From contig NZ_VYGV01000006.1 of assembly GCF_013387465.1 (NCBI RefSeq), positions 963,638 to 1,027,637 of the forward strand: a stretch of 64,000 nt of DNA. Direction: 5' to 3'. The notes beneath the pieces are model-generated. The model was not told where the DNA came from and did not search any database. It saw only the letters and a program-made list of their open reading frames with translations. Below are positions 12,255 to 51,987 of this stretch, in pieces. Positions within the stretch are counted from its first letter, which is position 1. Each line of letters starts with the position of its first letter. This stretch comes from Hydrogenophaga aromaticivorans. Its GTDB lineage: Bacteria; Pseudomonadota; Gammaproteobacteria; Burkholderiales; Burkholderiaceae_C. Made by a program: the position numbers and the translations under genes.

Positions 12255-12258
12255 TGAT

Positions 12259-12289
12259 TGGCGGAGCGAGAGAGAAACGAACTACAGCC
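12259..12289 (-). other. putative attachment-site remnant: 3' end of a tRNA gene
   Basis: The minus strand ends TTCGTTT-CTCTC-TCGCTCC-G-CCA. The spacing is exactly that of a tRNA 3' end: 7-base T loop, 5-base T-stem strand, 7-base acceptor strand, discriminator, CCA. A terminator follows at once. The 5' T-stem strand is not complementary, so this is a fragment, not a gene. It lies between the last host gene and the terminator of the last phage gene, as expected for one half of a tRNA attachment site. The TTCG is followed by T where A58 is expected, which lowers certainty. Confidence 0.5.
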
Positions 12290-15400: not shown

Positions 15401-18400
15401 TCGCTCCCAGACTCGCGCTGCATTGCCATGTACACAGCTTGGCCGGTGGTGTTACCAGCCTCCATCGGCTGCATCATCTCTGCCAGTGTCTGGTAGTAAT
15501 CAGCGCCATCAACTGCAAGCTGTTTTAGCGCCTCCAGAACCTTCTTCGGCTGCTCGCTCAACGGCTTGTCCCACAGAAGCATCTCGGTGTCTTCTGGGAT
15601 TTCGGCCTCGTAGAGCTGGCCTTGTGCACCTTTCACGGCGTCTTGCAGCTCCTGCGATGCATCGTAGGCGTCAAGCTCCTTGAATGCCGCCGTGATGGCC
15701 TGGGCCGGGTAGTCGAATCCGAGCCAGTCGTCAGCAGCCAGCGCACGGATCACGCGGGCGCGTTGCGGACTCATCGTGTCGGCGGCGTCGAGTGCTTCGT
15801 CAAAATCTGCGTCATCTGGCATCTCGTCGCGGAACTCTTTGACGATCTGCTTGTAGCTCAGGCCTTTGCGGTAGTGCTCGGCGATTTCCTTCTTGCTGGC
15901 GAAGTACAGACCCCACCCGTAGGCCTGTGCACCTTCACCTGTGCCGATGGCGTCCGTGGTGAAGCGCTCGAACCGGTGCGGCGTGCCGTGGTATGCGCGA
16001 GCGAACACCGGCTTTGCTGACTTCTTGGCGCTGTCCGTCCGCTTGCCAGCCTCAAGGAACCGCTGCGCATTCACCAGCGCGCCCTGCAGTTCGGCCATGG
16101 TCATCTTCACGTCGATACCGATAGAGCGCAGGAACTCGACCACCTTCGCATAGACCGACTTCACGAACCCGAAGCCTGGGCGGAAATTGCCGTCTGCGTC
16201 AACAGCCTGCTCGACCACCTTCGCGGCAATCTCGTCGGCTTCCTGCATCTCGGACAGGTTGAACTTTCCGGCGTCGTCCACGTAGGCCGCGCGAACGTCA
16301 TTGCGGATCGCGGCCAGCGGCTTGTTGCCGGTCTTAAGCGCAAGCTGGATGTTCCCCATGAACTTCTTCCAATCGTCCTTCCCCAGCATCTCGCGCAGGC
16401 CGTGGTGAGCAATGGCCTCATGGGTCAGCACCTCCATGGCCTTGGCCTTGTCGCGGATGTTCTGCGCCACGAGGTAGACCTTGCCGCCGAAGTACACGCC
16501 GTGCACGTCGCCCGGGGCAGGCATGGGAAGGTCTTTGGTCGTTGCCACCACCGTGACGTTCGGACCGTTCTGCCAGCGCTTGAGCACCGGGGCGATGGCC
16601 TTCTGCAGATCGGCGGTTTTCATGCCACGCTGCATCGGCGTGGTCATCTGGCGGAAAAGATCAGCCGTCAGGGGGCGGCTGTAGAAGATCCGTTCGTCTT
16701 TTGAGGCCGATGCAAGTTGCGCTCGTTGGCGAACAAGTTTGTCCAGTAGGCTTTCACCCGCACCGGTCCGCCCTGCTCCATCGCCACCCGTTCCCCGTCC
16801 GCGTAGAAGGGAACGGAACACAGCGCCTCGCGCAACCGTGCGCCACCCTGATTGAGCCTTGGCAAGGTCACTTCCCGGAAGTTTTTGTCGTGACTCGCTA
16901 CTTCTTGCTGCGAGCATCCCTCTAGGAATAGGTCGCCCAGTACGTCCCAAGAATTGTCCGGTTGCGAGGTCATAGGTGATCTGATCAGAGTCGGGATAGG
17001 CATTGTCCATCGCCCTGACAGACACGTCAATCATGCGCTCGATGTTGCCAACGTGATCGCCATAGACCCATTTCAGCGCTGGTACGCCGATCTTTGGCGA
17101 ACCTTCGGTCTGCCTTGGGTGCGGCGCCAGGTGGGCGGTCGTGCCAAACTTCAGAGCGCTGGAAATCATGTGCTCGGTGCGTCGGCGCATGGCTTCGTCA
17201 GATAGGCCAGATGGGTCGCCAATGAAGATGCGCCCCGTGTTGTGCGCGTAGGTCGCTGCGATGTTGTAGACCCGCGCACCGTTCTGGCCGGGCTTCAGGC
17301 TCGACACATCAATCCACACGTCTTCGGCGCTGTCAGGTACATCCTCTGGGTTCTCTCCGGGCCTGCCCATCTCCCATGTCGTGTTGTTGTCGGAATCGAC
17401 TTCACCGGCGTACACGCTGTTGGGGCCAGACTTTCGAACCGTGATCCTGGCCAGCTTGCCGTCAGGCATGGTCAGCGTGTACATCGTCTCGTTGCCCGGA
17501 AGGTTGGCCTTGCGGACTTTAATTTCCGGGTCGTGATCGGCCGTGATTCCTTCGATGGTTTCCTTATCGGACTTCGGCATCGAGTACAGGTCATCGGTTT
17601 CGGCGAGGATGGCCAGCGGGTCGGCGCTGCGCGAGAACATCGGCTGAGTCGTGTCCTGGCGACCATCCTCGACCGTCAGCGTGAAGCTGTCGGATCCGGC
17701 TTCGCTCTCGCGCTTGACCTGGGCGCGTGCATCCAACTCATCAGCGCGGCTTACACGTTCCTGCTGGGATTCGATGTCGGATTTCGTGGGGGCGGTGAGT
17801 GTCTGCGTCAGAACCTCGCGGGCCTTTACCGCCTGAGTCCTTCCCACCACCACACCGGTAGCGCTCGAGAGAATGGACTTCGCCGGGATGCCGGCAGCGG
17901 TCAGGCGTTCGCGCAGCGCCTTGGTGTCGCCCTTGACGGAGAGGGTTCCGTCCGGGCGGTCGGTCAGGCTTTCGCTGGTGCCTTCTCGCGCCGTGCGCAA
18001 AGCGCGCGCATCGTCAGAGATCGTCATCCCAGAACTCACAGGCGGAAGCTTTCCGCCGCGCGCCTCAAGCGCGTCATACAACGCCGAGCCAACACCGCGA
18101 CGACGGTCCTGCTCGCGAACGAACGAATCGATTGGACCTCCGTTCGGCATGAACGTCAGGCGACCGACTTCCTCGCCGGCATCGTTGGTAGCGATCAGCG
18201 TCTTGGGCTCACCGTACTCGCCTCGCACCAGCGATCCGAATGCCTTCGGCGCTGGCTGTTGAGAAATTGTGATCCGCCCGCCGTCCTTGAGCGTCACCCC
18301 ATCGGCTTGAACGTCACCGGCTCCAGTCGCTGTGGGTAGTCCTGCTGCGGCTGCATTGCCACCCGCTGGCGCTGGCGCTTCAACTGGCGCGGCGGCTGCT

Positions 18401-36298: not shown

Positions 36299-37600
36299 TC
36301 AGACGTTGCGCTTGCGCACCACGCTGTTGATGACGGCCACACCGAAGTCGGTGGGCTCCAGCTCGCCATCGGCGTTCGGCAGGCTCCAGCGGAGCTTTTC
36401 TTCCACGCCCATGATTTCGCCGGCCAGTTCGAGGTTTCGCTCGAAGTTGGTGCGGGCTTCCAGCAGCGAGTAGGTTTCCTCGCTGGTCTGGTTGCCACCG
36501 GAAACCACGGCCAGGGCTTGGGCACCCAGGAATATCGATGTCGCCACTTGGTGGGTGGTGGACAGGCCTGCGGCCACGGTCACATCGGTCTCGGTCGCCG
36601 TCAGACGGTTGGCCGCGGTGATGTGCTTGACCAGATCGCTCGCGTCGTGCCGGATGGCGTACTGCATCTTGCGGTGCAGGATGCCGTTCCAGAAGATCGG
36701 CGCGCCACTGAACAGCGGGTGCTTGCCCAGTTCGCCGTACTTCGCGCGCTGCATGGCTTCGGCTTCGAACTTGCGCAGGTTGCCGGTCGCCGTGGTGTCG
36801 GTCAGCAGCGCGTCCCAGGCCAGGGAGTCGTGATACATCACGCCCTTGATCGGGTCATCGCCAGCGGCCGGGTCACCGGGGATCATGATCGGCGCCATAC
36901 GCACGGTCATTTCGTCCCAGATCGCAGCGAACTCGTCCAGATGCGACAGCTTCAGGGCGTCGGTCGTGGCCACGGAAGCCAGTTGCGCGCCGCCTTGCGT
37001 CAGACTCGAACCGTTGACCACCCAGTGGCGGTTGTAGGTCGGGGCCTTGATGGCGTTGACCATCATGTCAGCGAACTCGGCATCGCTGGCCAGGGGCAGC
37101 ACCCAGTCGGTTCCGTCCTGCTTGCCGCGGGCGCCGGCCAGGAAGGCCAGGCAACGCTGCCAGCGGAAGGCGGGGATACCGCGCTTGAGCTGGGCCAGGG
37201 CATTCAGGCGCATGCTGTGGGGCGTGCGTTGCTGAGTCATCTTTCCGCCCGCGGACACCGGGATGGTGGCCATGTCGAGCGTGATGTCCTTGGAGCTGTA
37301 CTTCAGCGCGGCGCCTTTGCCTTCGGCGTTGGCATCACCCATCACTGGGCGCAGCTTGACAACGTGGGCACAGTCGATCTGCACCACATCGCCAGGGCCT
37401 TTGCTCAGTTCATCGACGCGGACGATGGGCATCTCGGTCGTGGACTGCTGCTTGAGCTTGCGCATCGCGCCGTCGTGGGTTGGCATCGGGCCGGTCAGGG
37501 CCGTCATGGGGGTGGGCTGGCGAACAGCCATGGCGGACAGCGCCTTCGAGAACTGCTTGTTCGCGAGTGCGGAGCCGCGGGGAACGGAAGTCTGGGACAT
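36299..37600 (-). CDS. major capsid protein (DUF4043 / N4-gp56-like family)
   Basis: A 433-residue coat protein. The N-terminus has LANKQFSKALSAMAVRQPTP, and the body has the stretch GDVVQIDCAHVVKLRPVMGD and AGGKMTQQRTPHSMRLNALAQL typical of the N4-gp56/DUF4043 capsid group (HK97 fold). It follows a scaffold gene and a P22-type portal gene, as expected for a podovirus head module. Confidence 0.8.
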   Translation of the reverse strand: MSQTSVPRGSALANKQFSKALSAMAVRQPTPMTALTGPMPTHDGAMRKLKQQSTTEMPIVRVDELSKGPGDVVQIDCAHVVKLRPVMGDANAEGKGAALKYSSKDITLDMATIPVSAGGKMTQQRTPHSMRLNALAQLKRGIPAFRWQRCLAFLAGARGKQDGTDWVLPLASDAEFADMMVNAIKAPTYNRHWVVNGSSLTQGGAQLASVATTDALKLSHLDEFAAIWDEMTVRMAPIMIPGDPAAGDDPIKGVMYHDSLAWDALLTDTTATGNLRKFEAEAMQRAKYGELGKHPLFSGAPIFWNGILHRKMQYAIRHDASDLVKHITAANRLTATETDVTVAAGLSTTHQVATSIFLGAQALAVVSGGNQTSEETYSLLEARTNFERNLELAGEIMGVEEKLRWSLPNADGELEPTDFGVAVINSVVRKRNV

Positions 37601-38736: not shown

Positions 38737-40869
38737 TCAGGCGGCGGCTTCTGCCAGCACCTGTTCCAGAATCTGGTCTTCGTTGGCAGCGGCGTCGGCG
38801 CGCATGGCCTGCTCGGTCTTGGCCATCGTCTCGGCGACGTTCGCCTGCGGTTCACCGGCTTCGATGCGCTGCTGGATCAACGCGGCGTTGGCCATGGCCT
38901 GCTGTGCGCTGGCCCGGTTGCGCTCGGCTGCTGACACCTGCACGTCCAGCGTGGCAGCGGCAAGCTGTGCCTGTTGCTCCATCTGAGCCTGCTGCATGCC
39001 TTGCTGCTGTTTCTCGGCGTTGGCAACGGCTTCCTTGTCGCTCGGGTCTGGCAGGCCGGACACCTTGCGAAGATCGGCGGCGACCTGTTCGCGGTTGTTC
39101 ACGCTGGTCGATTCGATGTAAGCCGGGGCCAGAACTGCGATGGCCTGCGGGTTGTTGCCCAGCGCCTGGATGATCTGGGCAAGCTGCTGCTGGCTCTGCT
39201 GGCGGTAGGCTGGCGTGTTCGGAACTTCGGCCAGCGAGGTCTTGATGTGAGCATCGCCGACCTGATTGATCGGCATGCCTTCTGGCGTCCAGTCGTTGAG
39301 CACCACCACGCGGCGGGTCTTGCCGGTGCCGACCGGTACTTGGGTGCGCTCGCCCTTCAGGTCTTCCAGAATCTCGTCCACAGCCAGCTCGAACGCGATG
39401 CGGCGCGCGTAGCTGTAGTTGTCGTTCATCTCGCCCATGGACTGCTCGCCCTGCTCGATCAGCATGGAGTTGGCAATCCCGGACTGCACCTGAGCGCTGC
39501 CCAGTTGGTTGGTGTAGCGGCCAGCCGTGGCCTGGATCAGTTCCTTGCTGTCGGCCATGATGGCGAACTGCTCGGGCTGCATCTGCAGGTCGTTGCGGAT
39601 CTTGATCGCCGTCTGGTTGCGGTTCTGCCGGTTCGGGTTCGTGATCGCCACGAAGTCCGGGCGCATGACGTTGGCTGCGATGTCGTCAATGGTGTTGAAC
39701 TCGGTGTCCAGCGCATCGCTGTCCATCTCGACCTGACGGGCCTTGAGCATCCACTGAACGCGCAGCCGGCGCTCGTTGTATTCGTCCTGCGGCGCGATCA
39801 TGCCTTCGATCAGGCCGTAAGGACTGCTGTCCTCGTCGTCGCGGAAGGCGAAGAACGGGACATAGGGGAAGTGGCGCTTCGTGGTGCCTTCATCGATCAG
39901 TCGGTGCGGGCCGGCGTACAGCGCGCGGCGCACCTGGCTGGTGATGCCCTTGGACAGCTTGACCAGACCACGGCTGACCGCTTCGACGTGGCGCGGGTCC
40001 TTGGCGTCGTAGGGAACATTGCGCCCACCCAGGTGCAGCACAACCACCTCGGCCGGCACGCGGTACCAGACCTCGTACAACCGGATCATCTTGCGCGCGC
40101 TGTCGAGCCAGTCCCATTTCTTGACGGTCAGGGCGAAGCGGGATTCGTTCTCGTAGGCGCTGGCCAGGTCGTATCTCTCGGGCTGGCCCAGATGGGAACC
40201 GTCGTCGTCCATGCCTTCGGACCAACCGGACACGCTCTGACGAAGAATCGCGCGGTGCTCCGGCATACCGGCTTCCACCTCATCCAGATCCACCATGCGC
40301 GAGCGAACCACCCAGCGGCAGCGGTGATCTAGCGTGACACCCTTCTGGCCGCGCCAGTCCCACCACATTTCATCGACCGGGACGGACTCGAAGCGGTACG
40401 GGTAGGCCAGCGGGTCGCTGCTGCGGCTCACATGAACCCAGCCCAGACCCTTCTTCACCATCGATGCGTAGGCTTCCGAGACGGCCATGTGGGCGCGTGT
40501 CTCGCGCTCCAGTTCCTTCAAGCGGCTGCTGGTGACTTCGGCGACATCTGCATGGGTGTCGTCGTCGGCTTCGACCTTCACGTCGGTGCGGCTCTTCGCT
40601 TCCTGGCCGAGCACCGAGTTGATGACCGGGCGGATCAGGTTGATCGCACGCTCTTCGAGGTCTTCCTGGCGGATGTTCCAGCGCTGGGTTTCGCTCAGTT
40701 GCTTGCCGTCGTAGTAGGCGTTGGCCAGCTTGGCGCGAAGCCTCCATTCAGGCTGCTCCATGCAGTCGCGGAGCATTCTTTCGAGGGCGAAAAGTGAGAA
40801 CGCACCTTTCCCAGCGAAGTCGCGCGACGTGTCGCCGGAGCGGTCTTCGTATGGGGTGGTTGGTTTCAT
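38737..40869 (-). CDS. portal protein, P22 type
   Basis: A 710-residue portal (P22 gp1 is 725). I start it at the ATG at 40869, overlapping the terminase stop by one base (TAATG). The N-terminal stem-wing region (RQEDLEERAINLIRPVINSVLGQEAKSR) is the conserved P22-portal segment. The C-terminal 100 residues are Gln/Ala-rich helices forming the long barrel. It forms the dodecameric DNA gate and docks the terminase. Confidence 0.88.
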   Translation of the reverse strand: MKPTTPYEDRSGDTSRDFAGKGAFSLFALERMLRDCMEQPEWRLRAKLANAYYDGKQLSETQRWNIRQEDLEERAINLIRPVINSVLGQEAKSRTDVKVEADDDTHADVAEVTSSRLKELERETRAHMAVSEAYASMVKKGLGWVHVSRSSDPLAYPYRFESVPVDEMWWDWRGQKGVTLDHRCRWVVRSRMVDLDEVEAGMPEHRAILRQSVSGWSEGMDDDGSHLGQPERYDLASAYENESRFALTVKKWDWLDSARKMIRLYEVWYRVPAEVVVLHLGGRNVPYDAKDPRHVEAVSRGLVKLSKGITSQVRRALYAGPHRLIDEGTTKRHFPYVPFFAFRDDEDSSPYGLIEGMIAPQDEYNERRLRVQWMLKARQVEMDSDALDTEFNTIDDIAANVMRPDFVAITNPNRQNRNQTAIKIRNDLQMQPEQFAIMADSKELIQATAGRYTNQLGSAQVQSGIANSMLIEQGEQSMGEMNDNYSYARRIAFELAVDEILEDLKGERTQVPVGTGKTRRVVVLNDWTPEGMPINQVGDAHIKTSLAEVPNTPAYRQQSQQQLAQIIQALGNNPQAIAVLAPAYIESTSVNNREQVAADLRKVSGLPDPSDKEAVANAEKQQQGMQQAQMEQQAQLAAATLDVQVSAAERNRASAQQAMANAALIQQRIEAGEPQANVAETMAKTEQAMRADAAANEDQILEQVLAEAAA

Positions 40870-42323
40870 TACTGGAGTCCTCTGAGCGCTCGATACTTCG
40901 ATGCGCTTTGTGATGAGTTCGTCTTCGCCAGGTGGATGCCAGTGACCACCAGATAGCGGGTGCCGTCCATCAAGTGGTCGTTCTTCTTGACGATGTGGCC
41001 CTTGTCGTCTCGGTGGTAGATGCGGTATTCCGCGAACCACGGCTTGCAGGACTTGAACACCTTGAGTCGGCCGGTTGCCAGGCGCTGGTGCACCTCATAC
41101 AGACCGGACTCGACCGAGTTCTCGGCTTCCGTGAGCGTCAGGCCCAGGTCGCGGTAAATCTGCAGGAGTTGCTGGCCATCCTTCTGGCTTCTGCCGCGGC
41201 TGGCTGGATCGATCGTTCCGGGAATCCATTCACCGCGCGCCTTGATCGCTGCGACGTGCGTACTGGGCTCCTGCTGGCCCTGGTAGTGGCACGAGTAGAT
41301 GTAGACGATGTCGGCGTCACGGTCGATGGCTGCGAACGGTGCGGCCGTCTTGTTCCATCCCACATCCAGGCCGTAGACACGAGGCCAGTGATCAGGGATG
41401 GCGAAGTCTTCGACCGATATCTCATCCTCGGCGACCGGGTAGATTGCGCCGGCTCCGATGCTCGGGATGCCTTTGGACCGTGCTTCCCTCAGGTGCGGTT
41501 CGCAGTCTCGAAGCAGCCGGTCCTTGGTGTCTTCGTCCAAGTGCGGGGCGTCGTCCCATCCGGCCATCACCAGCGCCTGGTGCCCGGCCTTGCCGATTCG
41601 GTCACTCGGAACCTCGGCGTCTTCGCCCAGGTACTTGAGCACCACCGGGGTCAACCCTCGCAGCGGCGTGAACGTCTCCATCAACAGGCCGCTGGTGGTC
41701 GCCAGACGCATAGCGCATTCAGCGCGGATTGCCTCGTTCGATTCCTCGTCCAGCCAGATCAGATCCTTGGCCGTTCCCTGGAAAGCCTCTCGGCCCTGGT
41801 CGAACGACTTGAAGCCCAGCCGGGAGAACTTGCCCGTTACGTGCTTGACGATGATGTAGTCCACCGCGCCGCCACCGTTGGGGCGCTTGACCACCTTCAC
41901 GATGTCTTCGCCAGGGATCAGGCCGGTGCCGTGTCCGCCATCCGGCCCGAGCATCTTGAGCTGAACGATGTCCCGGACGGTTTCCTTCGTGTCGCCAGCA
42001 GCCCAGGCGTCAATCGCATGGTCGAACCGATGGCCAGCCCACCAGAACGGGTAGCGTCCCGTCAGGTGCAGTGCGGTTTCGTAGCCTCCAGCCTCAGATT
42101 TACCAACACGATTTCCAGCCATGAAGCCGCGCGTGGCGAACGTGGCGCCCAGCTCGAAGAACGCCATGTGCTGAACGTACAGCTCTCGGCGCAGCGGCCC
42201 GACATCCGGGTAGTAGGTGAACAGCTTGCGGTGCCGCGCCCTGCGCTCACGCTCTTCCAAGAGCGCCAACAGCTCCAGCTTGTCGCGGCGCTGCTTCTCC
42301 GCCAGGTCAGAGGCCAGCGACAC
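40869..42323 (-). CDS. terL: terminase large subunit
   Basis: A 484-residue packaging motor. The ATPase has Walker A GNRVGKSE at residues 70-77 and Walker B DLIWLDEES near 186. The C-terminal RNase-H-like nuclease begins at YGLDVGWNKTAAPFAA near 324, with further acidic residues after it. Upstream is the small subunit (17-base overlap), downstream the portal. The portal type suggests headful packaging, but that is not proven. Confidence 0.92.
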   Translation of the reverse strand: MSLASDLAEKQRRDKLELLALLEERERRARHRKLFTYYPDVGPLRRELYVQHMAFFELGATFATRGFMAGNRVGKSEAGGYETALHLTGRYPFWWAGHRFDHAIDAWAAGDTKETVRDIVQLKMLGPDGGHGTGLIPGEDIVKVVKRPNGGGAVDYIIVKHVTGKFSRLGFKSFDQGREAFQGTAKDLIWLDEESNEAIRAECAMRLATTSGLLMETFTPLRGLTPVVLKYLGEDAEVPSDRIGKAGHQALVMAGWDDAPHLDEDTKDRLLRDCEPHLREARSKGIPSIGAGAIYPVAEDEISVEDFAIPDHWPRVYGLDVGWNKTAAPFAAIDRDADIVYIYSCHYQGQQEPSTHVAAIKARGEWIPGTIDPASRGRSQKDGQQLLQIYRDLGLTLTEAENSVESGLYEVHQRLATGRLKVFKSCKPWFAEYRIYHRDDKGHIVKKNDHLMDGTRYLVVTGIHLAKTNSSQSASKYRALRGLQ

Positions 42324-43044
42324 GCAGGCGCTCGCTGATTCTGGCGTTCAAGTCTTCGTCGGACAGATCGCCGATTTCGTCAACAGGGGGAGGCGCTTCC
42401 GGGTCATCCAGACCGTGAGCCTGACGCTCAAGCCCGATGAGCTTCCCGGCCGTGGTTGCCAACCGCTGCATCACAAGGCTGCGAGCGGGAAGCTTCACGA
42501 TGGCGGAAACCCCGGCGCGCAACTCGGCAACCTGCTCTTGCGTCAGGCTGTCGTCCAAGAGCATTTCAGCCATCGTCTTGAGGTCTGACTTTCCAAGTTG
42601 CTGAAGCTCGGACGCCATGTCAACCATGATGCTGGTGAGAACCTGAATGTCTTTGCGATGCCCAAGAATCACGTTCTTGTTCAGCTCTGCTGCTGCCAGG
42701 ACCGTGCTGCTGACCTTCTGCTGACCACTGCTGATTTCCTTGCTGACTAATTCCTCGACCAGCTTGGCATTGGTTGCGGCCTTGATCGCTTTGGACAGGT
42801 CCTGCGTCCATCCGTCCTTCTTGGCCTTGCGGGATATCAAGCCATTGTTGGCGCCGTGCTTGGCTTCGAGTTCGCGCAGGGTGAACTGGCCGGTTCGGTA
42901 GTCCCGCTCTACGGCTTCCCAGTCTGTGCGCTTGCGCTTCTCTGGCGCGGGTGCTGGTGCGGAAAGCTCGGCATCCAGCGAACCTGACGCGCCTGGAGTG
43001 CTGCTTTTTTGTGCAGCAGCGAGCGATTCGGCCAGTTTCGACAT
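42307..43044 (-). CDS. terS: terminase small subunit
   Basis: A 245-residue DNA-recognition subunit. The segment RTGQFTLRELEAKHGANNGLISRKAKKDGW is a helix-turn-helix typical of TerS proteins (residues about 50-80). A helical oligomerisation region follows. It overlaps terL. The N-terminus is a Pro/Ala-rich linker. Confidence 0.8.
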   Translation of the reverse strand: MSKLAESLAAAQKSSTPGASGSLDAELSAPAPAPEKRKRTDWEAVERDYRTGQFTLRELEAKHGANNGLISRKAKKDGWTQDLSKAIKAATNAKLVEELVSKEISSGQQKVSSTVLAAAELNKNVILGHRKDIQVLTSIMVDMASELQQLGKSDLKTMAEMLLDDSLTQEQVAELRAGVSAIVKLPARSLVMQRLATTAGKLIGLERQAHGLDDPEAPPPVDEIGDLSDEDLNARISERLRVAGL

Positions 43045-43045
43045 C

Positions 43046-43450
43046 TCAGAACGCGGCGATGCGCTCGGCCAGGACGGAGCTGAGTTGGCGCTGCAGGTTC
43101 AACTGGCGGACCAGGCGGTGCTGTTCGGCGAGGTCGAGGGAGCGGAAGGTGTCCGATCCGGTGAAGGCGTGCAGGCGCTCGATGTTGCCTTCCAGATCCA
43201 GGCGTTCGGCGATGACGCGCATCTGGTGCAGCGGCTTTTCGGTTGCATCGAGCACCTTGACGGCGTTCTCTTCAAGGAACGTCATCTTCCTTCCGCTGCG
43301 CTTGCTGCAGACGTGAAGGCGGTGGAACTCCACTCCATCAACGCTGTCTTGATCGACGTCTTGCACAACGAATTGGCCCCAGCCTGGCTCTCCTTTGAAC
43401 TCGACGGTATCGCCGACTTCGAAACGGCTGGCTTCGGTGGTTTCGCTCAT
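43046..43450 (-). CDS. small phage protein with crAss001_48-like C-terminal region
   Basis: A 134-residue protein. A beta-rich N-terminal domain (EVGDTVEFKGEPGWGQFVVQ) resembles a YodF/SH3-like fold. The C-terminal helical hairpin (HQMRVIAERLDLEGNIERL, then HRLVRQLNLQRQLSSVLAERIAAF) matches the small family known as crAss001_48-related. Function unknown. Confidence 0.6.
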   Translation of the reverse strand: MSETTEASRFEVGDTVEFKGEPGWGQFVVQDVDQDSVDGVEFHRLHVCSKRSGRKMTFLEENAVKVLDATEKPLHQMRVIAERLDLEGNIERLHAFTGSDTFRSLDLAEQHRLVRQLNLQRQLSSVLAERIAAF

Positions 43451-43469
43451 GGCTCAGACCTCTGGGTGT

Positions 43470-43508
43470 AAAAAATCGCCCGGGTCCGGGTGGTCCGGTA
43501 TCCGGGCG
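43470..43508 (-). terminator. intrinsic terminator before the packaging genes
   Basis: The minus strand reads CGCCCGG, a GC-rich inner stem (CCGGACCACCCGG region), CCGGGCG and then ATTTTTT. It lies between the GIY-YIG gene and the 43046-43450 gene. Confidence 0.75.
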
Positions 43509-43575
43509 CTGTGAAGGGCTGCGCGTGAAAAAAGCCTGTGAAAGCCACGCAGCCGGGAGACTCTGTCTGTGGAAA

Positions 43576-44013
43576 CTAACGACCCCACGATTCAAGTTGG
43601 ACAGAAGCGCTTTCTGCTTTCTTTGCCCACTTGAATCGAACCTTGAGGTTGTGGCGATCATCGCTCCCGGGCCGCACCCCTTTTTCCGCTTGAAGCGGGG
43701 TGTACAACTCTCCGTGAGCCAAGGCGTTTGCAGCGCCACCTGTCCGCAGCTCCATCAAGAACTTCTGAAAGGCTGGCATCCGGCCCGGATACCATTCATT
43801 TGGCGGCATTGGGACAAAAACCTGGGTGAACACCTCTCGAAGAACGCTGTGTATTGCCTGCTCTTGTCGAAGCGTTCCATCTACAGTGAACAGGGGTTTG
43901 ATTTCAAAAGGAGAGCCTGTTTGAAGCTCGGAAATCCTTTTGCTCACATCCGGGTTACCCGAGTACCCGATCTTCACGTACTGGCTATTGAGAATATGGA
44001 CTGCGTAGATCAC
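43576..44013 (-). CDS. GIY-YIG nuclease-like protein (T5orf172/MUG113 type)
   Basis: A 145-residue protein with the GIY-YIG-like core AVHILNSQYVKIGYSGNPDVSKRISELQTGSP, cut here to its keys: IYAVHI, YVKIGYSGN and RISELQTG. Glu in RQEQAIHSVL may be the metal ligand. It is a small stand-alone nuclease, possibly a homing enzyme, immediately downstream of the permuted tmRNA gene. That position is suggestive because homing nucleases often sit beside conserved RNA genes. Confidence 0.7.
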   Translation of the reverse strand: MIYAVHILNSQYVKIGYSGNPDVSKRISELQTGSPFEIKPLFTVDGTLRQEQAIHSVLREVFTQVFVPMPPNEWYPGRMPAFQKFLMELRTGGAANALAHGELYTPLQAEKGVRPGSDDRHNLKVRFKWAKKAESASVQLESWGR

Positions 44014-44299
44014 ATTGCCCTCACACGCGCAAAGCGCAAGGCCACACTGAGAGAGCTATCGGAAAGGGTGGTGTGATCACCCCTTATCGGCCGGCCAGCC
44101 TATCCGAAGCCAAAAACTGTTGCTCACCCCCGCCCGCCTTCCAGAATGAGGGGCTGAATGCGTCGTCCTACGTGGTGAGCTGCGGCCCATATTCGCCGGA
44201 TGGGTTCCGCTATTCCGGAGCGAGAAACCGTATGAGGCCAACCCCTGACGGGGATGTGACGGCCTGATGCTTGGCTTCTTTCGTCGCTGGTTTTCTTGG

Positions 44300-44700
44300 C
44301 CCCAGACGTTGCCTCTCGGGAGCCTCTGAGCAAGGCCCGATCAGTTTGTGATGTCTGGGTTTGAATGGGTGCCCTGCTTCTGTTGCCGAGCGCAGGGCGG
44401 CTCCGAAGGCGGTTTTAGGCCGCTTTCAGGAACGTGCTTTCATTGGCAGTTCTGGGTTTTGCTTCGCTTACGGCGAACGCCTGTCGGATCGTCGGCATCG
44501 GCTTCCGGGCACTGTCGAAACCAGTACACCCCCGCATGGTGGAGGTGGCGGAAATCGAACCCGCGTCCAGCACACTTTCACGTCAGCTTCTGGCGGGGTT
44601 TCGCCCGCCTACGATCATGTTCACTGCGGGCCGACGAAAGCCCTTGGTGGATGGGTGCAGGGCTTGGACCTTGGGCTTGTAGCCGTATGGGTGGTGTCCG
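44300..44700 (-). ncRNA. ssrA: permuted (two-piece) tmRNA
   Basis: The 3' tRNA-like half comes first: T arm GGACGCGGGTTCGATTTCCGCC and acceptor strand CACCTCC, A, CCA ending at 44537. After only three bases (TGC) the 5' half starts at 44533 with GGGGGTG, fully complementary to the acceptor strand (one G.U), and the tmRNA D-loop motif CTGGTTTCGAC. P2 can form between 44487-44496 and 44607-44616 (9 pairs, one mismatch). The tag reading frame lies at 44415-44447, its stop in the loop of a P5-like GCGG/CCGC hairpin. Pseudoknot-like stems GCCCTGC/GCAGGGC and CCCAGAC/GTCTGGG (44353-44359 with 44301-44307) follow. Permuted ssrA is known in Alphaproteobacteria, some Cyanobacteria and one Betaproteobacterial lineage. 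Outer boundaries are approximate. Confidence 0.88.
44415..44447 (-). other. tmRNA tag reading frame, peptide ANESTFLKAA
   Basis: GCC AAT GAA AGC ACG TTC CTG AAA GCG GCC TAA encodes ANESTFLKAA. It begins with the canonical Ala-Asn and ends in Ala-Ala. The usual C-terminal LAA that binds ClpX is KAA here. The resume codon is GCC, preceded by the A-rich CCCAGAACT. Confidence 0.85.
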
Positions 44701-44716
44701 CGCCTGCGTAAAAGAG

Positions 44717-44746
44717 AAAAGCCCCGTGGTTTCCCTTGGGGCTTTT
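44717..44746. terminator. bidirectional terminator upstream of the tmRNA gene
   Basis: AAAAGCCCC, a 12-base loop, GGGGCTTTT: a perfect 9-bp stem with T runs on both strands. On the minus strand it would stop transcripts entering from the early genes just before the tmRNA. Confidence 0.75.
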
Positions 44747-44747
44747 C

Positions 44748-45162
44748 AATGGCTGTTATGCCGTTTTCGCGTACTTGGCAAGACGCTATAGCATTTTGGC
44801 ATAGCTTCAGGCAACAGGCAAGACGATAGGCATTGACCTACCGTGTTGGATTCTTTGCCCTGCGTTGTCCGACCGGGGAGCGGATCGAGTCCGCTTGAAT
44901 CTGTTGTGTCGTACCCTGTTGGTTCATCAGGCGCCGTTATTACGCGTTGGCCCTCGCGCCTACCCGTTGCCGGGTGTCGTAGCCATATGCCTGTTTCGCG
45001 ACTATCCAGGGACCTGTCGCCTGCCGTCTTGCCAGTAAGCAGCGCCACGATTCGTCGTAGCCCGTCCACCTCTTTGATCCGTGCGGTTTCAGTGGAGTAC
45101 CCGATGTTTCGGCCCGGAGTGCCGTTTGAGCCGTTCCTTGAGGCTCGAAAAGTGATTGGGCA
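44748..45162. other. 415-base stretch without a convincing gene
   Basis: Between two terminators. A minus-strand frame (44746-45177, 143 codons) contains a plausible helical segment (TARIKEVDGLRRIVALLTG) but has no clear ribosome site and ends inside the terminator hairpin. A minus-strand TTGCCT (44809-44814), 18 bases, TATAGC (44785-44790) is a weak promoter candidate facing the tmRNA. Nothing else is recognised. Confidence 0.4.
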
Positions 45163-45187
45163 AAAGAAAACCCGCACTTGGCGGGTT
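45163..45187 (-). terminator. intrinsic terminator at the end of the ninR-like genes
   Basis: Minus-strand GAACCCGCCAAGTGCGGGTTTTCTTTT, a 7-bp GC stem with a T-rich tail, about 110 bases after the last early-type gene (45298-45564). Confidence 0.8.
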
Positions 45188-45297
45188 CATTTACCTTCGT
45201 TTGAAGGCGGCTGACCATCGAAGAGGACGGTTTACCGTCATCGCCTGTGGCCAGCTGTCAGCAGCGCGGAACGAATCGAGCGCTACCGGTGGCAGGA

Positions 45298-45564
45298 TTA
45301 TGCATGATCGCTGCTTTTTTGTGCAACTGGTTGTTTCTGCACGTCGCCAACCTCGTCCATCCACATCGCATCGGCTTCCAGGCCTTTGAACTTGTGGCCT
45401 GGATTGTTCGGCGTGGTCATCACTATGGCGGTCTGCCGGGCCTGTTCGCAGATGTCGCAGATCAACCGCTTGCCGAAGTCCTTGGTTCCGATCTGGTTGC
45501 CGTGCCTGCAACGCTCCTGGCCAACGTCCAGCGACGGGATGATTGTTGTCGAGCGCAGCTTCAC
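45298..45564 (-). CDS. small phage protein of unknown function
   Basis: An 88-residue protein with a GTG start at 45564 overlapping the NinX-like stop (GTGA). It begins KLRSTTIIPSLDVGQERCRHGNQ and has Cys residues CDIC mid-protein. The C-terminal HKFKGLEADAMWMDEVGDVQ is acidic. Nothing diagnostic is recognised. It is the last gene before a terminator. Confidence 0.5.
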   Translation of the reverse strand: MKLRSTTIIPSLDVGQERCRHGNQIGTKDFGKRLICDICEQARQTAIVMTTPNNPGHKFKGLEADAMWMDEVGDVQKQPVAQKSSDHA

Positions 45565-45935
45565 AAATCCACCTCGTCGCCCAGCTTCGAAGCCACAAAG
45601 CACCGCATGGCCGCGATCAGGGCGGTTTCGCCTTCCTGCTGGTGGTCCATTTCAAGCGCTTCACGGCTCGAAACACTGGCGTTCACGCCAGCGATCCATT
45701 TGAGCCTTGAATCGAATAAAGGACAGATCAGGCTGATTTCCTCGCGCTCAATGAGTGGCCCGCCCTGTGCCCAATCGGTCGATGGGCTGTACTGCTTGGC
45801 GGAATAGGCGTGAATCCTCGCGCTCTCTGCGTAGGCAAGGTATCCACCACGGCACTGAGCAACTTCAATGCATTCAGCCTTCGCCACAGCAGCGTCAAGC
45901 AGGGATCCTGAAAGCTCAGAGGTCTTGTGTTTCAT
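45561..45935 (-). CDS. NinX-like protein (DUF2591)
   Basis: A 124-residue protein. The start MKHKTSELSGSLLDAAVAKAE and the downstream PSTDWAQGGPLIEREEISL are characteristic of the NinX/DUF2591 family found in ninR regions of lambdoid phages. Function unknown; the family is thought to aid growth in the host. Confidence 0.8.
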   Translation of the reverse strand: MKHKTSELSGSLLDAAVAKAECIEVAQCRGGYLAYAESARIHAYSAKQYSPSTDWAQGGPLIEREEISLICPLFDSRLKWIAGVNASVSSREALEMDHQQEGETALIAAMRCFVASKLGDEVDL

Positions 45936-45938
45936 GGC

Positions 45939-46199
45939 TCAGTCCTTGAATATGCTGTGCGGGTTTCGCTTCACGTTCAGGCCGTCGCGCATCATGATCC
46001 CGATGCGCTCAAGAAAGGCCATGACCCGGCCGAACTCGTCTTCACTGCGCCAGTCGATGCCGAGAAGCTTCATGCGGAATCCGAGCTGCAGACCGTTCAG
46101 GTTTGCGACGTGGGTCCAAGTTTCCGGCAGCATGGCCTTCACCTTGTCCTCGTTGTCCTTCAGCCATTGTCCGTTTCCGAGGGTGTCCATCAGGCTCAT
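45939..46199 (-). CDS. small phage protein
   Basis: An 86-residue, mainly helical protein (MSLMDTLGNGQWLKDNEDKV). It overlaps the candidate antiterminator stop by 4 bases (ATGA). Motifs are lacking. It is conserved in position within the ninR-like block. Confidence 0.55.
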   Translation of the reverse strand: MSLMDTLGNGQWLKDNEDKVKAMLPETWTHVANLNGLQLGFRMKLLGIDWRSEDEFGRVMAFLERIGIMMRDGLNVKRNPHSIFKD

Positions 46200-46771
46200 G
46201 CCAACTGCCTCCGAATTTCCATCTCAGCGAAGCTGTACGCGCCGGCCATGGCGTGCATCAGGTCGGCGGCGAATTCCTTCTGCAAAACGTCCAACCCTAC
46301 CGCGTCCTGTGATTTCCCTGATCCACCACAGCGCCGGCAGATGTTCTGAATGCTGCCATCGTACCCGCCGATCAGGCCGGTTCCGCTGCATGTCGGGCAT
46401 GTCGGGCTCAGGAACGATGACAGGCACCCGCCGACGATGGCGGCGATCTGCTTGTCCGACAGCATCACCCGACGTTTTGTCGCTCGGTCCAGTGCCCACA
46501 GGTGCAGCGCTTCCTTCGTTTCGCGCAGGGTCCGAAGCTCCATCAGGATCAGCAGCATACCGGTCAGGTCGTTGTCGGCCGTCTTGCGCACGTCCTGGGC
46601 CACGGAGTCGTATTCCTGCATGAGCCTGAGCAGCTTCGGTCCGATGCCGTGCACCATGCCGGCCGCGGCGATCATGTCCACATCCCCTTGCCGGTGCTCG
46701 CTCATTCCGAGGTGGCTGGTGTGCGCGGCTCGGGCGTAGCGCTCGGCTGTTGTGGGTTTGTCGTCGCTCAA
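46196..46771 (-). CDS. candidate late regulator with DnaJ-type zinc motif (antiterminator Q-like)
   Basis: A 191-residue helical protein with a zinc motif CPTCSGTGLIGGYDG then CRRCGGSG at about 122-150, inside a helix-rich body. Late antitermination proteins (Q group) of many phages have this arrangement, and the gene sits at the end of the early block, upstream of terminator-studded late genes. The Q role is inferred from position and motif; it could also be an unrelated zinc protein. Confidence 0.5.
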   Translation of the reverse strand: MSDDKPTTAERYARAAHTSHLGMSEHRQGDVDMIAAAGMVHGIGPKLLRLMQEYDSVAQDVRKTADNDLTGMLLILMELRTLRETKEALHLWALDRATKRRVMLSDKQIAAIVGGCLSSFLSPTCPTCSGTGLIGGYDGSIQNICRRCGGSGKSQDAVGLDVLQKEFAADLMHAMAGAYSFAEMEIRRQLA

Positions 46772-49203: not shown

Positions 49204-49685
49204 GCGGCCACCTCTTCACGCTTCGGCGCTCGGGTTGTCTCGACCATCTGGCCGTCGATGCGCTGCACTTCGGGGATTTCGTAGCCCTGCTGCGCCGCCC
49301 ACGAAAACACGAACTCGATCAGCTCGGCCATCTCGCGGCCTGTCAGCTCGGATGTCCGTCGGAACACGATGTCGATGCCGTGGCCGTCCAGAGCTGGCAG
49401 GTATCCCACGGGCTCACCGATGGCGCGGCACCAGCTGGCCACCAGGAGGCGCTTCCATGTCTCGATGTCGCGCTTCGACCCAGCCCATTCGATGTTCTTG
49501 CTGATCCATCCCAGCATCGCGTGCAGGCGGGCGCTGTGCTCTTGCGTGCGCTTCGCTGGCTTGACGGTCAAGGTCAGGCGGTGCTCGGCCATCAGCATGG
49601 CTTTCGCCCATGGCCAGACCACCTCCTTGATTTCCTTGTAGGCCTGCACTGGGTTGTGCAGGGTGATGGTGATGCCGGTGGTCAT
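49200..49685 (-). CDS. NinB-type recombination protein
   Basis: A 161-residue protein starting at the ATG at 49685. The NinB/Orf family pattern is visible: the central HSARLHAMLGWISKNIEW, WKRLLVASWCRAIGE, and the end TSELTGREMAELIEFVFSWAAQQG. In lambda this protein binds ssDNA and supplies RecFOR-like loading for phage recombination. It is coupled to the methyltransferase by 4 bases. Confidence 0.85.
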   Translation of the reverse strand: MTTGITITLHNPVQAYKEIKEVVWPWAKAMLMAEHRLTLTVKPAKRTQEHSARLHAMLGWISKNIEWAGSKRDIETWKRLLVASWCRAIGEPVGYLPALDGHGIDIVFRRTSELTGREMAELIEFVFSWAAQQGYEIPEVQRIDGQMVETTRAPKREEVAA

Positions 49686-50590
49686 GCGGCCTCGCTCAGT
49701 TCTTCGGGTTCGTCCGGGGCGAACAGCCCTTGCGCCTGCTCTTTCTCGGCCATCAGCAGGTTGGCGGATGCCTGCTTGAAGTAGCTGTCCTTCAACTCGG
49801 CACCGACGAACTTGCGGCCCATTTCCAGCGCCACGAAACCTTCGGACCCGATGCCCGTGAACGGCGACAGCACCACGTCGCCCGGGTTCGTCCACAGGTC
49901 GATTCCGCGCCGGATCACTTCGAGCTGGAGCGGGCAAATGTGGCGTTCGTCGTCGTGCTCGCGGGCGCTGCGGAACTGCAGGGTGTCGTTCGGGTTGATG
50001 TCCATCCAGACCGGTGATGCCACCTTCTGCCACTTGTCCACCGGGTAGGTCTCAGGCGTGTGCGTCACCTTGTCCATCATTTCACCGGGAGCGCGCATGG
50101 TCACGAGGTAATCAGGGATGCCCTGGCGGCTCATGCACGCATTGGTGCGGACGGTCTTGTGCAGCAGGCCCAGCGCCTTGGTGCGCTGCATGGAGGTCAC
50201 CGGGTCTTTCCAGATGCACACCTCGCTGGCGTAAATGAAACCGTGCTTCTGGAACGCGCGGATCAGTTCGCCGCGGAAGTCCTTCAGCCCGATGTATCCG
50301 TCACGCTCTTTGCTGGTCGGCATCAGCATGCAGTGGAAGCTGACGTTGTGGCCCGGCTTCATCACGCGCGCCAGTTCGGCAACAAGGAAGTCGAAGTGCT
50401 CAAAGAACTCGGCATCGTTGCGCACGTTGCCCATGTCGCGCGGGCTGTTGCTGTAGGTGTACAGGCTGGCGAAAGGCGGCGAGAAGATCGAGTAGTCCAC
50501 CGACTGAGAAGGCAGGCCACTCATGACCTCCACGCAATCGCCATGGAACAGGGAGAAGTTTTTGCCGTTGGTTTGATTGATGCAGTTCAT
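49682..50590 (-). CDS. DNA methyltransferase, beta-class (N4-cytosine/N6-adenine)
   Basis: A 302-residue methyltransferase. Catalytic motif IV SPPF is near residue 37 and the SAM-binding motif I DVVLSPFTGIGSEG near 241, the order of the beta class. SPPF rather than DPPY suggests N4-cytosine specificity. There is no adjacent restriction gene; it is coupled to an SNF2-type helicase upstream. It probably protects phage DNA. Confidence 0.85.
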   Translation of the reverse strand: MNCINQTNGKNFSLFHGDCVEVMSGLPSQSVDYSIFSPPFASLYTYSNSPRDMGNVRNDAEFFEHFDFLVAELARVMKPGHNVSFHCMLMPTSKERDGYIGLKDFRGELIRAFQKHGFIYASEVCIWKDPVTSMQRTKALGLLHKTVRTNACMSRQGIPDYLVTMRAPGEMMDKVTHTPETYPVDKWQKVASPVWMDINPNDTLQFRSAREHDDERHICPLQLEVIRRGIDLWTNPGDVVLSPFTGIGSEGFVALEMGRKFVGAELKDSYFKQASANLLMAEKEQAQGLFAPDEPEELSEAA

Positions 50591-51987
50591 GCGGCCACCA
50601 GAAAAGAAGGGACGTTGATCGGGGTGTTCGCGGCGTAGTCATTGCTCTCGCGGGACTGGCCAAACAGTTCGGACTTGACGGATTCGAGGACTTCTGTCGC
50701 CAGGGCTTCGGCCATTTGGTTGGCGTCCTCTTCCTTGCGCTTGAGGTTCGACACGATGGAACCCTCTTGCTCGCTGGCGAAGATGTGCACATGCACTTCC
50801 TGTTTTTGGCCGAAGCGGTAGCAGCGGCGCACGGCCTGGTAATAGGCCTCCCACGAGTCCGTCACGCCGACGAAAGCCACGTTTCGGCAGTGCTGCCAGT
50901 TCAAGCCCCATCCGGCGATAGACGCCTTTGTGACCAGCACTCGGGTGCGTCCTTCGGCGAAGTCGTGCAGGCGTTTCTCCTTGGTCTGTTCGTCGTCGGC
51001 GCCGCGAATCTCCACGGCGTCAGGGATGGCTGCGCGCAGTGCTTCGCCCTCGGCATTCAGGTCGCACCAGATAACCCATGGCTCGGTGCTGGCGTTGACC
51101 ATGGCAGCGCAGGCTTTTACGCGCTCTTCAATGCTGGCCTTGCGGGCGCTGCGGCGCTCCATCAGGTCATTGGCCTTCATGGCGAACAGGAACCCGGTTT
51201 CTTCCTGGCTGTGCTCGCTCTCGACGGTGTGCTGATGCACGGTCAGCGGCGGCAGGTTGTAGGCCGATGCGTCATAACCCAGATCGGAAGGGCTGCGCAG
51301 CATCACGCCCCACGAAGCCACCCAGCGCCAGAAGATTTGCCGGGCGTGGCCCTTGACGCGCCATGTCTGGGTGTCGCCGCCGTCATGGACGAAGAACTCT
51401 GCCAACATCTCGGCGCGCGAGCGGATGCCCAGGAACTCGGCATGCGTTCCAAGCTCGGTCCAGTCGTTCGGCGCCGGAGTGGCCGTGGCGCACAGCCGGT
51501 AAGGCGTGCGGCTGAATGCGTCCAGCAGCGCCTGCAGGGTCTTGCTGGTGTGGTGCTTGATGACGCTGGATTCGTCCAGAACGACACCCACGAACCGCGA
51601 TGCATCGAACTTGTGCAGCCGGTCATAGTTCGTGATGTTGATGCCTGGCTTCACATCATCCGCATCGTGAGCGTGCGTGATCGTCACGCCACATGCCGCA
51701 GCTTCAGCAACCGTCTGTTGCGCCACTGCCAACGGGGCCAGGATCAGAATGTCGCCGGAAGTCTCTCGGCACACCACGTCAGCCCATGCGACTTGCATAC
51801 GGGTCTTTCCAAGACCGGTATCAGCAAAGATCGCGCAGCGGCCACGGCGCAGCGCCCAGCGGACGAGCGCCACCTGATGCGGGAACAGTCCGTCGATCAG
51901 GTCAACGTCGTGCGTGATGCCAACGGGTGGCGTTGATGTGAGCTTTTGACGGACGAATCCGCCGTAGTCGATAATCGTTTCAGCCAT
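50587..51987 (-). CDS. SNF2-family DNA helicase/translocase
   Basis: A 466-residue protein with two RecA-like domains. Walker A ADTGLGKT is at 55-62, motif II reads VVLDESS near 137, and the C-terminal motif VI is VRRCYRFGQ near 390. It overlaps the methyltransferase start, so the pair is probably co-translated. Phage SNF2 proteins of this size are usually replication/recombination accessories. Confidence 0.87.
   Translation of the reverse strand: MAETIIDYGGFVRQKLTSTPPVGITHDVDLIDGLFPHQVALVRWALRRGRCAIFADTGLGKTRMQVAWADVVCRETSGDILILAPLAVAQQTVAEAAACGVTITHAHDADDVKPGINITNYDRLHKFDASRFVGVVLDESSVIKHHTSKTLQALLDAFSRTPYRLCATATPAPNDWTELGTHAEFLGIRSRAEMLAEFFVHDGGDTQTWRVKGHARQIFWRWVASWGVMLRSPSDLGYDASAYNLPPLTVHQHTVESEHSQEETGFLFAMKANDLMERRSARKASIEERVKACAAMVNASTEPWVIWCDLNAEGEALRAAIPDAVEIRGADDEQTKEKRLHDFAEGRTRVLVTKASIAGWGLNWQHCRNVAFVGVTDSWEAYYQAVRRCYRFGQKQEVHVHIFASEQEGSIVSNLKRKEEDANQMAEALATEVLESVKSELFGQSRESNDYAANTPINVPSFLVAA

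Follow-up and report, generated by a model that had tools for sequence, protein, structure and literature searches.

The locus and its prophage

The window, a stretch of 64,000 nucleotides from Hydrogenophaga aromaticivorans, contains part of a prophage of approximately 59.7 kb that is inserted in a tRNA-Ser gene. A 15-bp attachment repeat marks the prophage ends, and the integrase gene is located outside the window. The phage features of the window that are relevant here are as follows.

12258-12272, plus: left attachment repeat, 15 bp (right copy outside the window, at the end of tRNA-Ser(GCT))
12412-20772, minus: 2786-aa protein, DarB-like with other phage matches (family matches)
36299-37600, minus: major head protein (phrog_334, E 2e-66)
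38737-41040, minus: portal protein (phrog_156, E 3.5e-113); the ORF start is probably overextended into the terminase gene
40869-42323, minus: terminase large subunit (phrog_2; Terminase_6N/6C)
42307-43044, minus: terminase small subunit (phrog_1206, E 8.4e-44)
44324-44653, minus: permuted (two-piece) tmRNA gene, outer limits (ARAGORN 44324-44629; RF04321 44415-44595; RF01850 44362-44653)
44716-44747, minus: terminator-like hairpin upstream of the tmRNA gene (-24.6 kcal/mol, z -3.35, 1 of 200 shuffles as low)
49682-51987, minus: methyltransferase (49682-50590) and helicase (50587-51987), common to the tmRNA-bearing phages G787 and G788

Downstream of the tmRNA gene lie the terminase, portal and head genes and those for an internal virion protein and the DarB-like protein, and upstream of it the methyltransferase, helicase, replication and RecT-type genes. 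The best match of the portal protein was that of Achromobacter phage CF418P1 (36.8% over 78%), which has a tRNA-Val gene ahead of its large terminase gene with three small annotated genes between them; the idea that this tRNA-Val is a hidden tmRNA was rejected, as Rfam assigns it to tRNA.

Because the prophage ends are marked by the attachment repeat in tRNA-Ser, the tmRNA gene is cargo of the prophage and not its attachment site, as an earlier note on this DNA had held. The same note placed the gene mid-operon. It is indeed inside the prophage, but the term was too loose, since the gene lies in a stretch of about 1.8 kb without called genes (43451-45297), downstream of the strong terminator-like hairpin (44747-44716). 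ORFs of at least 70 aa are present in this stretch, and the three that were scanned gave no family match. A promoter scan of 43000-46500 returned one site, 45325-45297, which is about the number expected by chance, and Rfam detected no riboswitch match anywhere in the window.

Structure of the two-piece tmRNA gene

The permuted tmRNA gene, first recognized from the letters of the DNA, was confirmed by two Rfam models searched against the 64-kb window, RF04321 (tmRNA_permuted; 96.5 bits, E 1.7e-17, cut-off 47) and RF01850 (beta_tmRNA; 93.6 bits, E 4.8e-27, cut-off 84). ARAGORN, which had been proposed as a check, also called a permuted tmRNA (tmRNA*) at 44324-44629 on the minus strand, the sole tRNA or tmRNA gene that it listed in the window. 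The scores are far above chance and the observation is real. The parts of the gene are listed below.

44628-44643, minus: leader hairpin GGGC-TTTCGTCG-GCCC (alignment with a relative)
44537-44595, minus: 3' piece with T arm, acceptor strand CACCTCC (44547-44541), A73 (44540) and CCA (44539-44537) (RF04321 alignment and sequence)
44568-44573, minus: P2 helix, 3'-piece strand GTGCTG, pairing with 44509-44514
44534-44536, minus: three-base intervening segment TGC between the two pieces (sequence), presumably excised
44371-44533, minus: 5' (coding) piece from G1, its 3' limit provisional, with GGGGGTG (44533-44527), the conserved CTGGTTTCGAC, tag and post-tag hairpin (Rfam and sequence)
44509-44514, minus: P2 helix, 5'-piece strand CAGTGC, pairing with 44568-44573
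44415-44447, minus: tag reading frame, very likely ANESTFLKAA, and stop (aligned to ANDSSYLKVA of G787/G788)
44371-44398, minus: post-tag hairpin GCCCTGC/GCAGGGC with GGCAACAGAA in the loop (fold; loop motif also in relatives)

The order on the minus strand is T arm, acceptor 3' strand, CCA, TGC, GGGGGTG and CTGGTTTCGAC, and thus the 3' half is encoded before the 5' half. The boundaries described earlier, with CCA ending at 44537, a three-base spacer and a 5' half starting at 44533, were read again in the sequence, and all seven of the claimed acceptor pairs form. The acceptor has the elements of alanine identity, namely G3.U70 (44531/44543), A73 and CCA. A P2 helix joining the two pieces is present, but it consists of six contiguous pairs; the nine of ten positions counted previously were an overstatement that we could not reproduce. 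All six pairs are kept in the closest phage relative despite three one-sided changes. The leader hairpin of the relative is TGGC/GCCA with an identical loop (one two-sided change), and the putative pseudoknot region contains the post-tag hairpin, the loop of which is conserved in relatives.

The Rfam alignment flagged several non-standard pairs, and the gene scores below chromosomal permuted genes (93.6 bits versus up to 335.9). Compared with 200 mononucleotide shuffles, the two-piece co-fold of the window gene was 2.9 sd below the mean, but that of the copy in the related phage only 0.8 sd. The co-fold of minimum energy contained the acceptor helix and lacked the canonical T arm; for these reasons folding energy alone gives weak support. 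The lower model scores, the broken pairs and the absence of a clear promoter are what would be expected if the gene were a captured ssrA that decays as a passenger and has no present function, and none of the other genomes of the genus that were searched (G114, G208, G280 and G341) showed a permuted gene; G208 alone passed the cut-off, with a gene that ARAGORN called one-piece. However, the tRNA-like identity elements and the tag frame are intact, and the tmRNA aligns to its relative along the full length, whereas the sequence above the leader hairpin has no clear alignment. We consider decay quite unlikely.

A one-piece ssrA (200.6 bits, tag ANDERFALAA) is present on a different contig of the 5.6-Mb host genome, which also has a single smpB, located outside the prophage. 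Since the host keeps its own ssrA, the phage tmRNA is not a stand-in for a missing host tmRNA, and the earlier suggestion that it replaces one is abandoned.

Relatives of the phage tmRNA

The closest relatives that we found are two metagenomic phages, G787 and G788, whose tmRNAs are almost the same. Two pattern searches among viral contigs had returned 7 and 10 contigs, 10 of them distinct, one being the window prophage. The helicase and methyltransferase of G787 and G788 share 89% and 91% amino acid identity, respectively, with those of the window, and in both phages the tmRNA is surrounded by small genes, with a RecT gene nearby. The structural genes of G787 are unlike those of the window, with a tape-measure protein and with portal and head proteins of different families, and G788 has a phrog_156 portal protein that gave no blastp match to the window portal.

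In a tmRNA tree, the window, G787 and G788 form a 99/99 clade on a long stem, which argues for descent within phages. The clade joins two other viral and three chromosomal tmRNAs (family f4) with support of 85/84, in a tree built from a short RNA with several long branches, the deep order of which we do not trust. G351 has a related structural operon in which a permuted tmRNA and three tRNAs are located between the portal gene and the next gene; the order at this locus (L105, 15989-17001) is tRNA-Arg, tRNA-Ser, permuted tmRNA (29-aa tag call) and tRNA-Met.

Searches of the phage collection with the window tmRNA (blastn) gave no match, and those with window positions 27000-50000 (megablast) gave no DNA relative. 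The IMG/VR locus L014 was considered as a second copy, being 100% identical over its 5684 bases, but its contig maps to 12412-71758 in window coordinates; it is the window prophage or a near-identical one and is not counted as a relative. A tag-pattern scan gave 11 contigs, three of them already known, and the eight new ones, which had no ARAGORN gene, were taken as chance matches. EBPR podovirus 1 has helicase, methylase and terminase genes in common with the window prophage, but no tmRNA.

The tag peptide

The tag frame claimed in the earlier note is present with its stop. ARAGORN reported the tag as EAKPRTANESTFLKAA, very likely with too early a start; alignment with relatives indicates ANESTFLKAA. 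Compared with ANDSSYLKVA of G787 and G788, this tag has four conservative replacements (E/D, T/S, F/Y and A/V) and no break of frame.

All 38 permuted tags counted from bacterial genome records (10 distinct; 24 of 27 loci in one set and 14 of 15 in another, some of which may lie in prophages) end in A[LIMV]AA, whereas in a post hoc count this end was found in 5 of 18 phage permuted tags and was absent from 13. Similarly, K or R occurs within the last five residues of 8 of the 18 phage tags versus none of the 10 distinct bacterial ones. The Fisher values, 0.0002 for the canonical end and 0.014 for K/R, are post hoc and come from non-random samples. Dropped from the phage count were JWDelta (doubtful ARAGORN tag) and Axy11 (no ARAGORN call), and, as not in phages, G168, G227, G641, G819 and a Pandoraea plasmid; dropped from the bacterial count were L021 (odd tag), L027 and L043 (no call) and L095 (second copy of G641). 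The tag starts of the window and Marzo were trimmed, G351 (29 aa) and Tunturi_4 (33 aa) were counted in spite of uncertain frames, the near-identical phages L017 and L018 were both counted because their tags differ, and G549, which also has a one-piece gene, was counted as bacterial. The aberrant tag of L021 (1112-1518, a Rhodocyclaceae MAG with a permuted tmRNA call) has 26 aa and ends in PVKA.

One could envisage from these counts, and from the LK shared by the window and G787/G788 tags, that the altered end (LKAA or LKVA) is the purpose of the gene, so that rescued proteins would be sent elsewhere than to ClpXP and phage products spared or re-routed. Yet an aromatic residue and the last Ala are retained. 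For E. coli ClpXP, the last two alanines weigh most and the antepenultimate residue modestly (excerpts of PMC7652416), so the loss of the antepenultimate Leu should have only a modest effect, and a weaker rather than a dead degron is to be expected for ANESTFLKAA. Moreover, five phage tags have canonical ends, the phage tags are diverse with some uncertain frames, and the samples are not independent. A switch of tag as the purpose of the gene thus seems to us distinctly improbable.

A proposed function in infection

The best explanation of the locus, in our view a moderately probable one, is a phage-encoded two-piece tmRNA that would use the SmpB and alanyl-tRNA synthetase of the host during infection. 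We infer its expression, processing, charging, tagging and role in infection. Cuts after CCA and before G1 would divide the minus-strand transcript into an acceptor piece and a coding piece, which the acceptor and P2 helices would keep together. The alanyl-tRNA synthetase of the host would charge the RNA by way of G3.U70, and host SmpB would carry it to stalled ribosomes, which would read the tag ANESTFLKAA and then be freed. Rescue capacity would in this way be added during phage growth, beside the one-piece tmRNA of the host, and the products would be marked with a phage-specific tag, an expected protease signal weaker than one ending in ALAA.

This explanation draws on the Rfam and ARAGORN matches, the intact acceptor with G3.U70, the CCA and a tag frame kept with respect to G787, and also on the one-piece ssrA and one smpB of the host and the related tmRNA in the structural operon of G351. 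Evidence against it includes the lack of a good promoter in one scan, the terminator-like hairpin just upstream, scores below those of chromosomal permuted genes with several non-standard pairs, and the near identity of G787 and G788, which leaves one effectively independent close relative; furthermore, the benefit may be small where the cell already has an ssrA. We conclude that the window tmRNA is a real and probably functional two-piece phage tmRNA, unusual in its tag and found in a host with a one-piece tmRNA of its own, and ribosome rescue is our best functional guess.

Several phage tmRNAs have been described in publications cited here from excerpts. Melnitz, a marine myophage of Methylophilales, has a two-piece ssrA of alphaproteobacterial type under a glutamine riboswitch, and 53 of 133 unique phage tmRNA structures were called two-piece, 50 of the 53 being marine or aquatic (PMC9004378). 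PMC4131195 reports ssrA-bearing phages as well as second or third alleles of ssrA, sometimes plasmid-borne, and PMC11915505 reports 79 phage tmRNA sequences; PMC10865867 and PMC12493166 added nothing decisive. The earlier note was right about phage cargo and named no prophage example in this group; two-piece phage tmRNAs are already published, and GenBank phages contain more. The window gene clearly adds a new case to a known kind; Melnitz was the only case that our search of open-licence literature for permuted tmRNA and prophage returned, and it may well be that a prophage example has been published. Like Melnitz and other phages of PMC9004378, the window phage has a complete two-piece tmRNA as cargo; unlike Melnitz, it is a prophage with a podovirus-like structural module and a beta-type tmRNA. 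With the betaproteobacterial two-piece tmRNAs (RF01850 and RF04321), the window gene shares the permuted order, the beta-type architecture and scores above both cut-offs, but it is phage-borne, accompanied by a one-piece ssrA in the same genome, and its tag ends in LKAA rather than A[LIMV]AA.

The tmRNA of Bxz1-group mycobacteriophages is one-piece. The mycobacteriophage tmRNAs (Bxz1 group, Wildcat and DS6A) are likewise phage cargo, and the DS6A RNA, as the excerpts of PMC4131195 describe it, has little beyond the tRNA-like domain and no tag. A decoy effect on SmpB or ribosomes has been reported for a molecule of that kind (PMC4131195 and PMC11915505, excerpts), and the window RNA might in the same way mainly titrate host SmpB or ribosomes and damp host trans-translation; the phage has no smpB of its own, the sole genomic copy being outside the prophage. 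Unlike the DS6A RNA, however, the window tmRNA retains a complete tag frame and stop, conserved in its relative, which argues against a pure decoy because such an RNA would need no tag. We regard a decoy as unlikely and favor ribosome rescue. In a lysogen with both forms of tmRNA, one could test directly whether the phage tmRNA serves as a backup to host trans-translation, competes with it or redirects it, and whether the phage-made tag alters the fate of proteins.

Permuted tmRNA genes in phages and bacteria

The RF04321 cut-off was passed in 23 of 399 genomes of the host family. ARAGORN, applied to 22 of these loci (L069 left out), called four permuted (the own genome, G168, G227 and G351) and 18 one-piece. 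RF01850 matches at 1e-14 were found in 16 of 399 genomes of the host order. Sixteen permuted-bearing genomes, comprising 13 of these 16 (G507, G545 and G751 left out) together with G168, G227 and G351, were searched for a one-piece gene; it was also present in six (the own genome, G168, G227, G351, G641 and G549), and none was detected at 1e-20 in the other ten. Among 369 sampled genomes of the host class, a draw with stricter filters in which the remainder of the order was represented by a single genome and the Acidobacteria by none, a permuted match at 1e-12 was seen only in the own genome and G819, which amounts to 1 of 366 sampled genomes outside the host family.

Permuted tmRNA-family genes were found in 11 phage types by blast with phage and second-copy tmRNAs, all above the RF04321 cut-off except Marzo, which was called by ARAGORN only. 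These are Bordetella PHB04; Alcaligenes QDWS595; Achromobacter Axy11 and JWDelta; Stenotrophomonas Menderavirus IME-SM1/Marzo and QDWS359; Pseudomonas PaMx31; Acinetobacter BUCT628; Xanthomonas XacN1 and Rb1; and Tunturiibacter Tunturi_4. Their host genera presumably have one-piece tmRNA. Caulobacter phage CcrPW and a Pandoraea plasmid also passed the RF04321 cut-off, and phage Phass-1 matched the one-piece model. The tmRNAs of the Bordetella, Alcaligenes, Stenotrophomonas, Pseudomonas, Acinetobacter and Xanthomonas phages resemble the window gene in being phage-borne RF04321 matches above the cut-off but belong to other sequence groups with other tags. We found no report of two-piece tmRNA in Stenotrophomonas in open-licence literature. 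Among the record stretches examined, tmRNA was annotated in Marzo only; the permuted tmRNAs of PHB04, QDWS595, Rb1, Axy11, JWDelta, QDWS359, PaMx31, BUCT628, XacN1 and IME-SM1 (L126, L127, L131 and L132-L138) are unannotated, and the PaMx31 record is wholly so.

With the permuted form in the phage and the one-piece form in its host, where permuted ssrA arose and how it spread become testable questions. We tentatively suggest, as a rather doubtful reading, that phages are a standing reservoir of permuted ssrA, bringing it into one-piece hosts with tag ends of its own and supplying the scattered chromosomal permuted genes outside the classic lineages. If so, the permuted ssrA of G819 would be a completed replacement. 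This genome, of the same class and another order, is possibly a further lineage with permuted ssrA; the gene (L142/L143, G819:C1:605801-605991; tag ANDDNFEVALAA) lies some 470 bases away from smpB, and a search of G819 for a one-piece ssrA detected none at 1e-20.

Second, permuted ssrAs with divergent tags are present alongside a one-piece ssrA in G168 (L103, 15952-16291), G227 (L101, 14256-14597) and G641 (L107, 14311-14671). That these are phage-borne was rejected, since 10 neighboring proteins, searched against Pfam only, included no phage family (three had no match of any kind); they are perhaps relics of mobile elements. Both forms of ssrA occur in G549 (L093, L096), the permuted one with the tag ANDENFAMAA, and the family member G643 has the permuted form only. 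The conjugative plasmid pPO70-1 of Pandoraea oxalativorans carries a permuted tmRNA (L129, 2110-2444; tag GKNDAFYYEAA) where no gene is listed. In Tunturi_4 (L139, 319-666 and 637-1171), a small gene with an RF-1 domain, release-factor-like, directly precedes the permuted tmRNA, and the two genes may constitute a two-part ribosome-rescue cassette.
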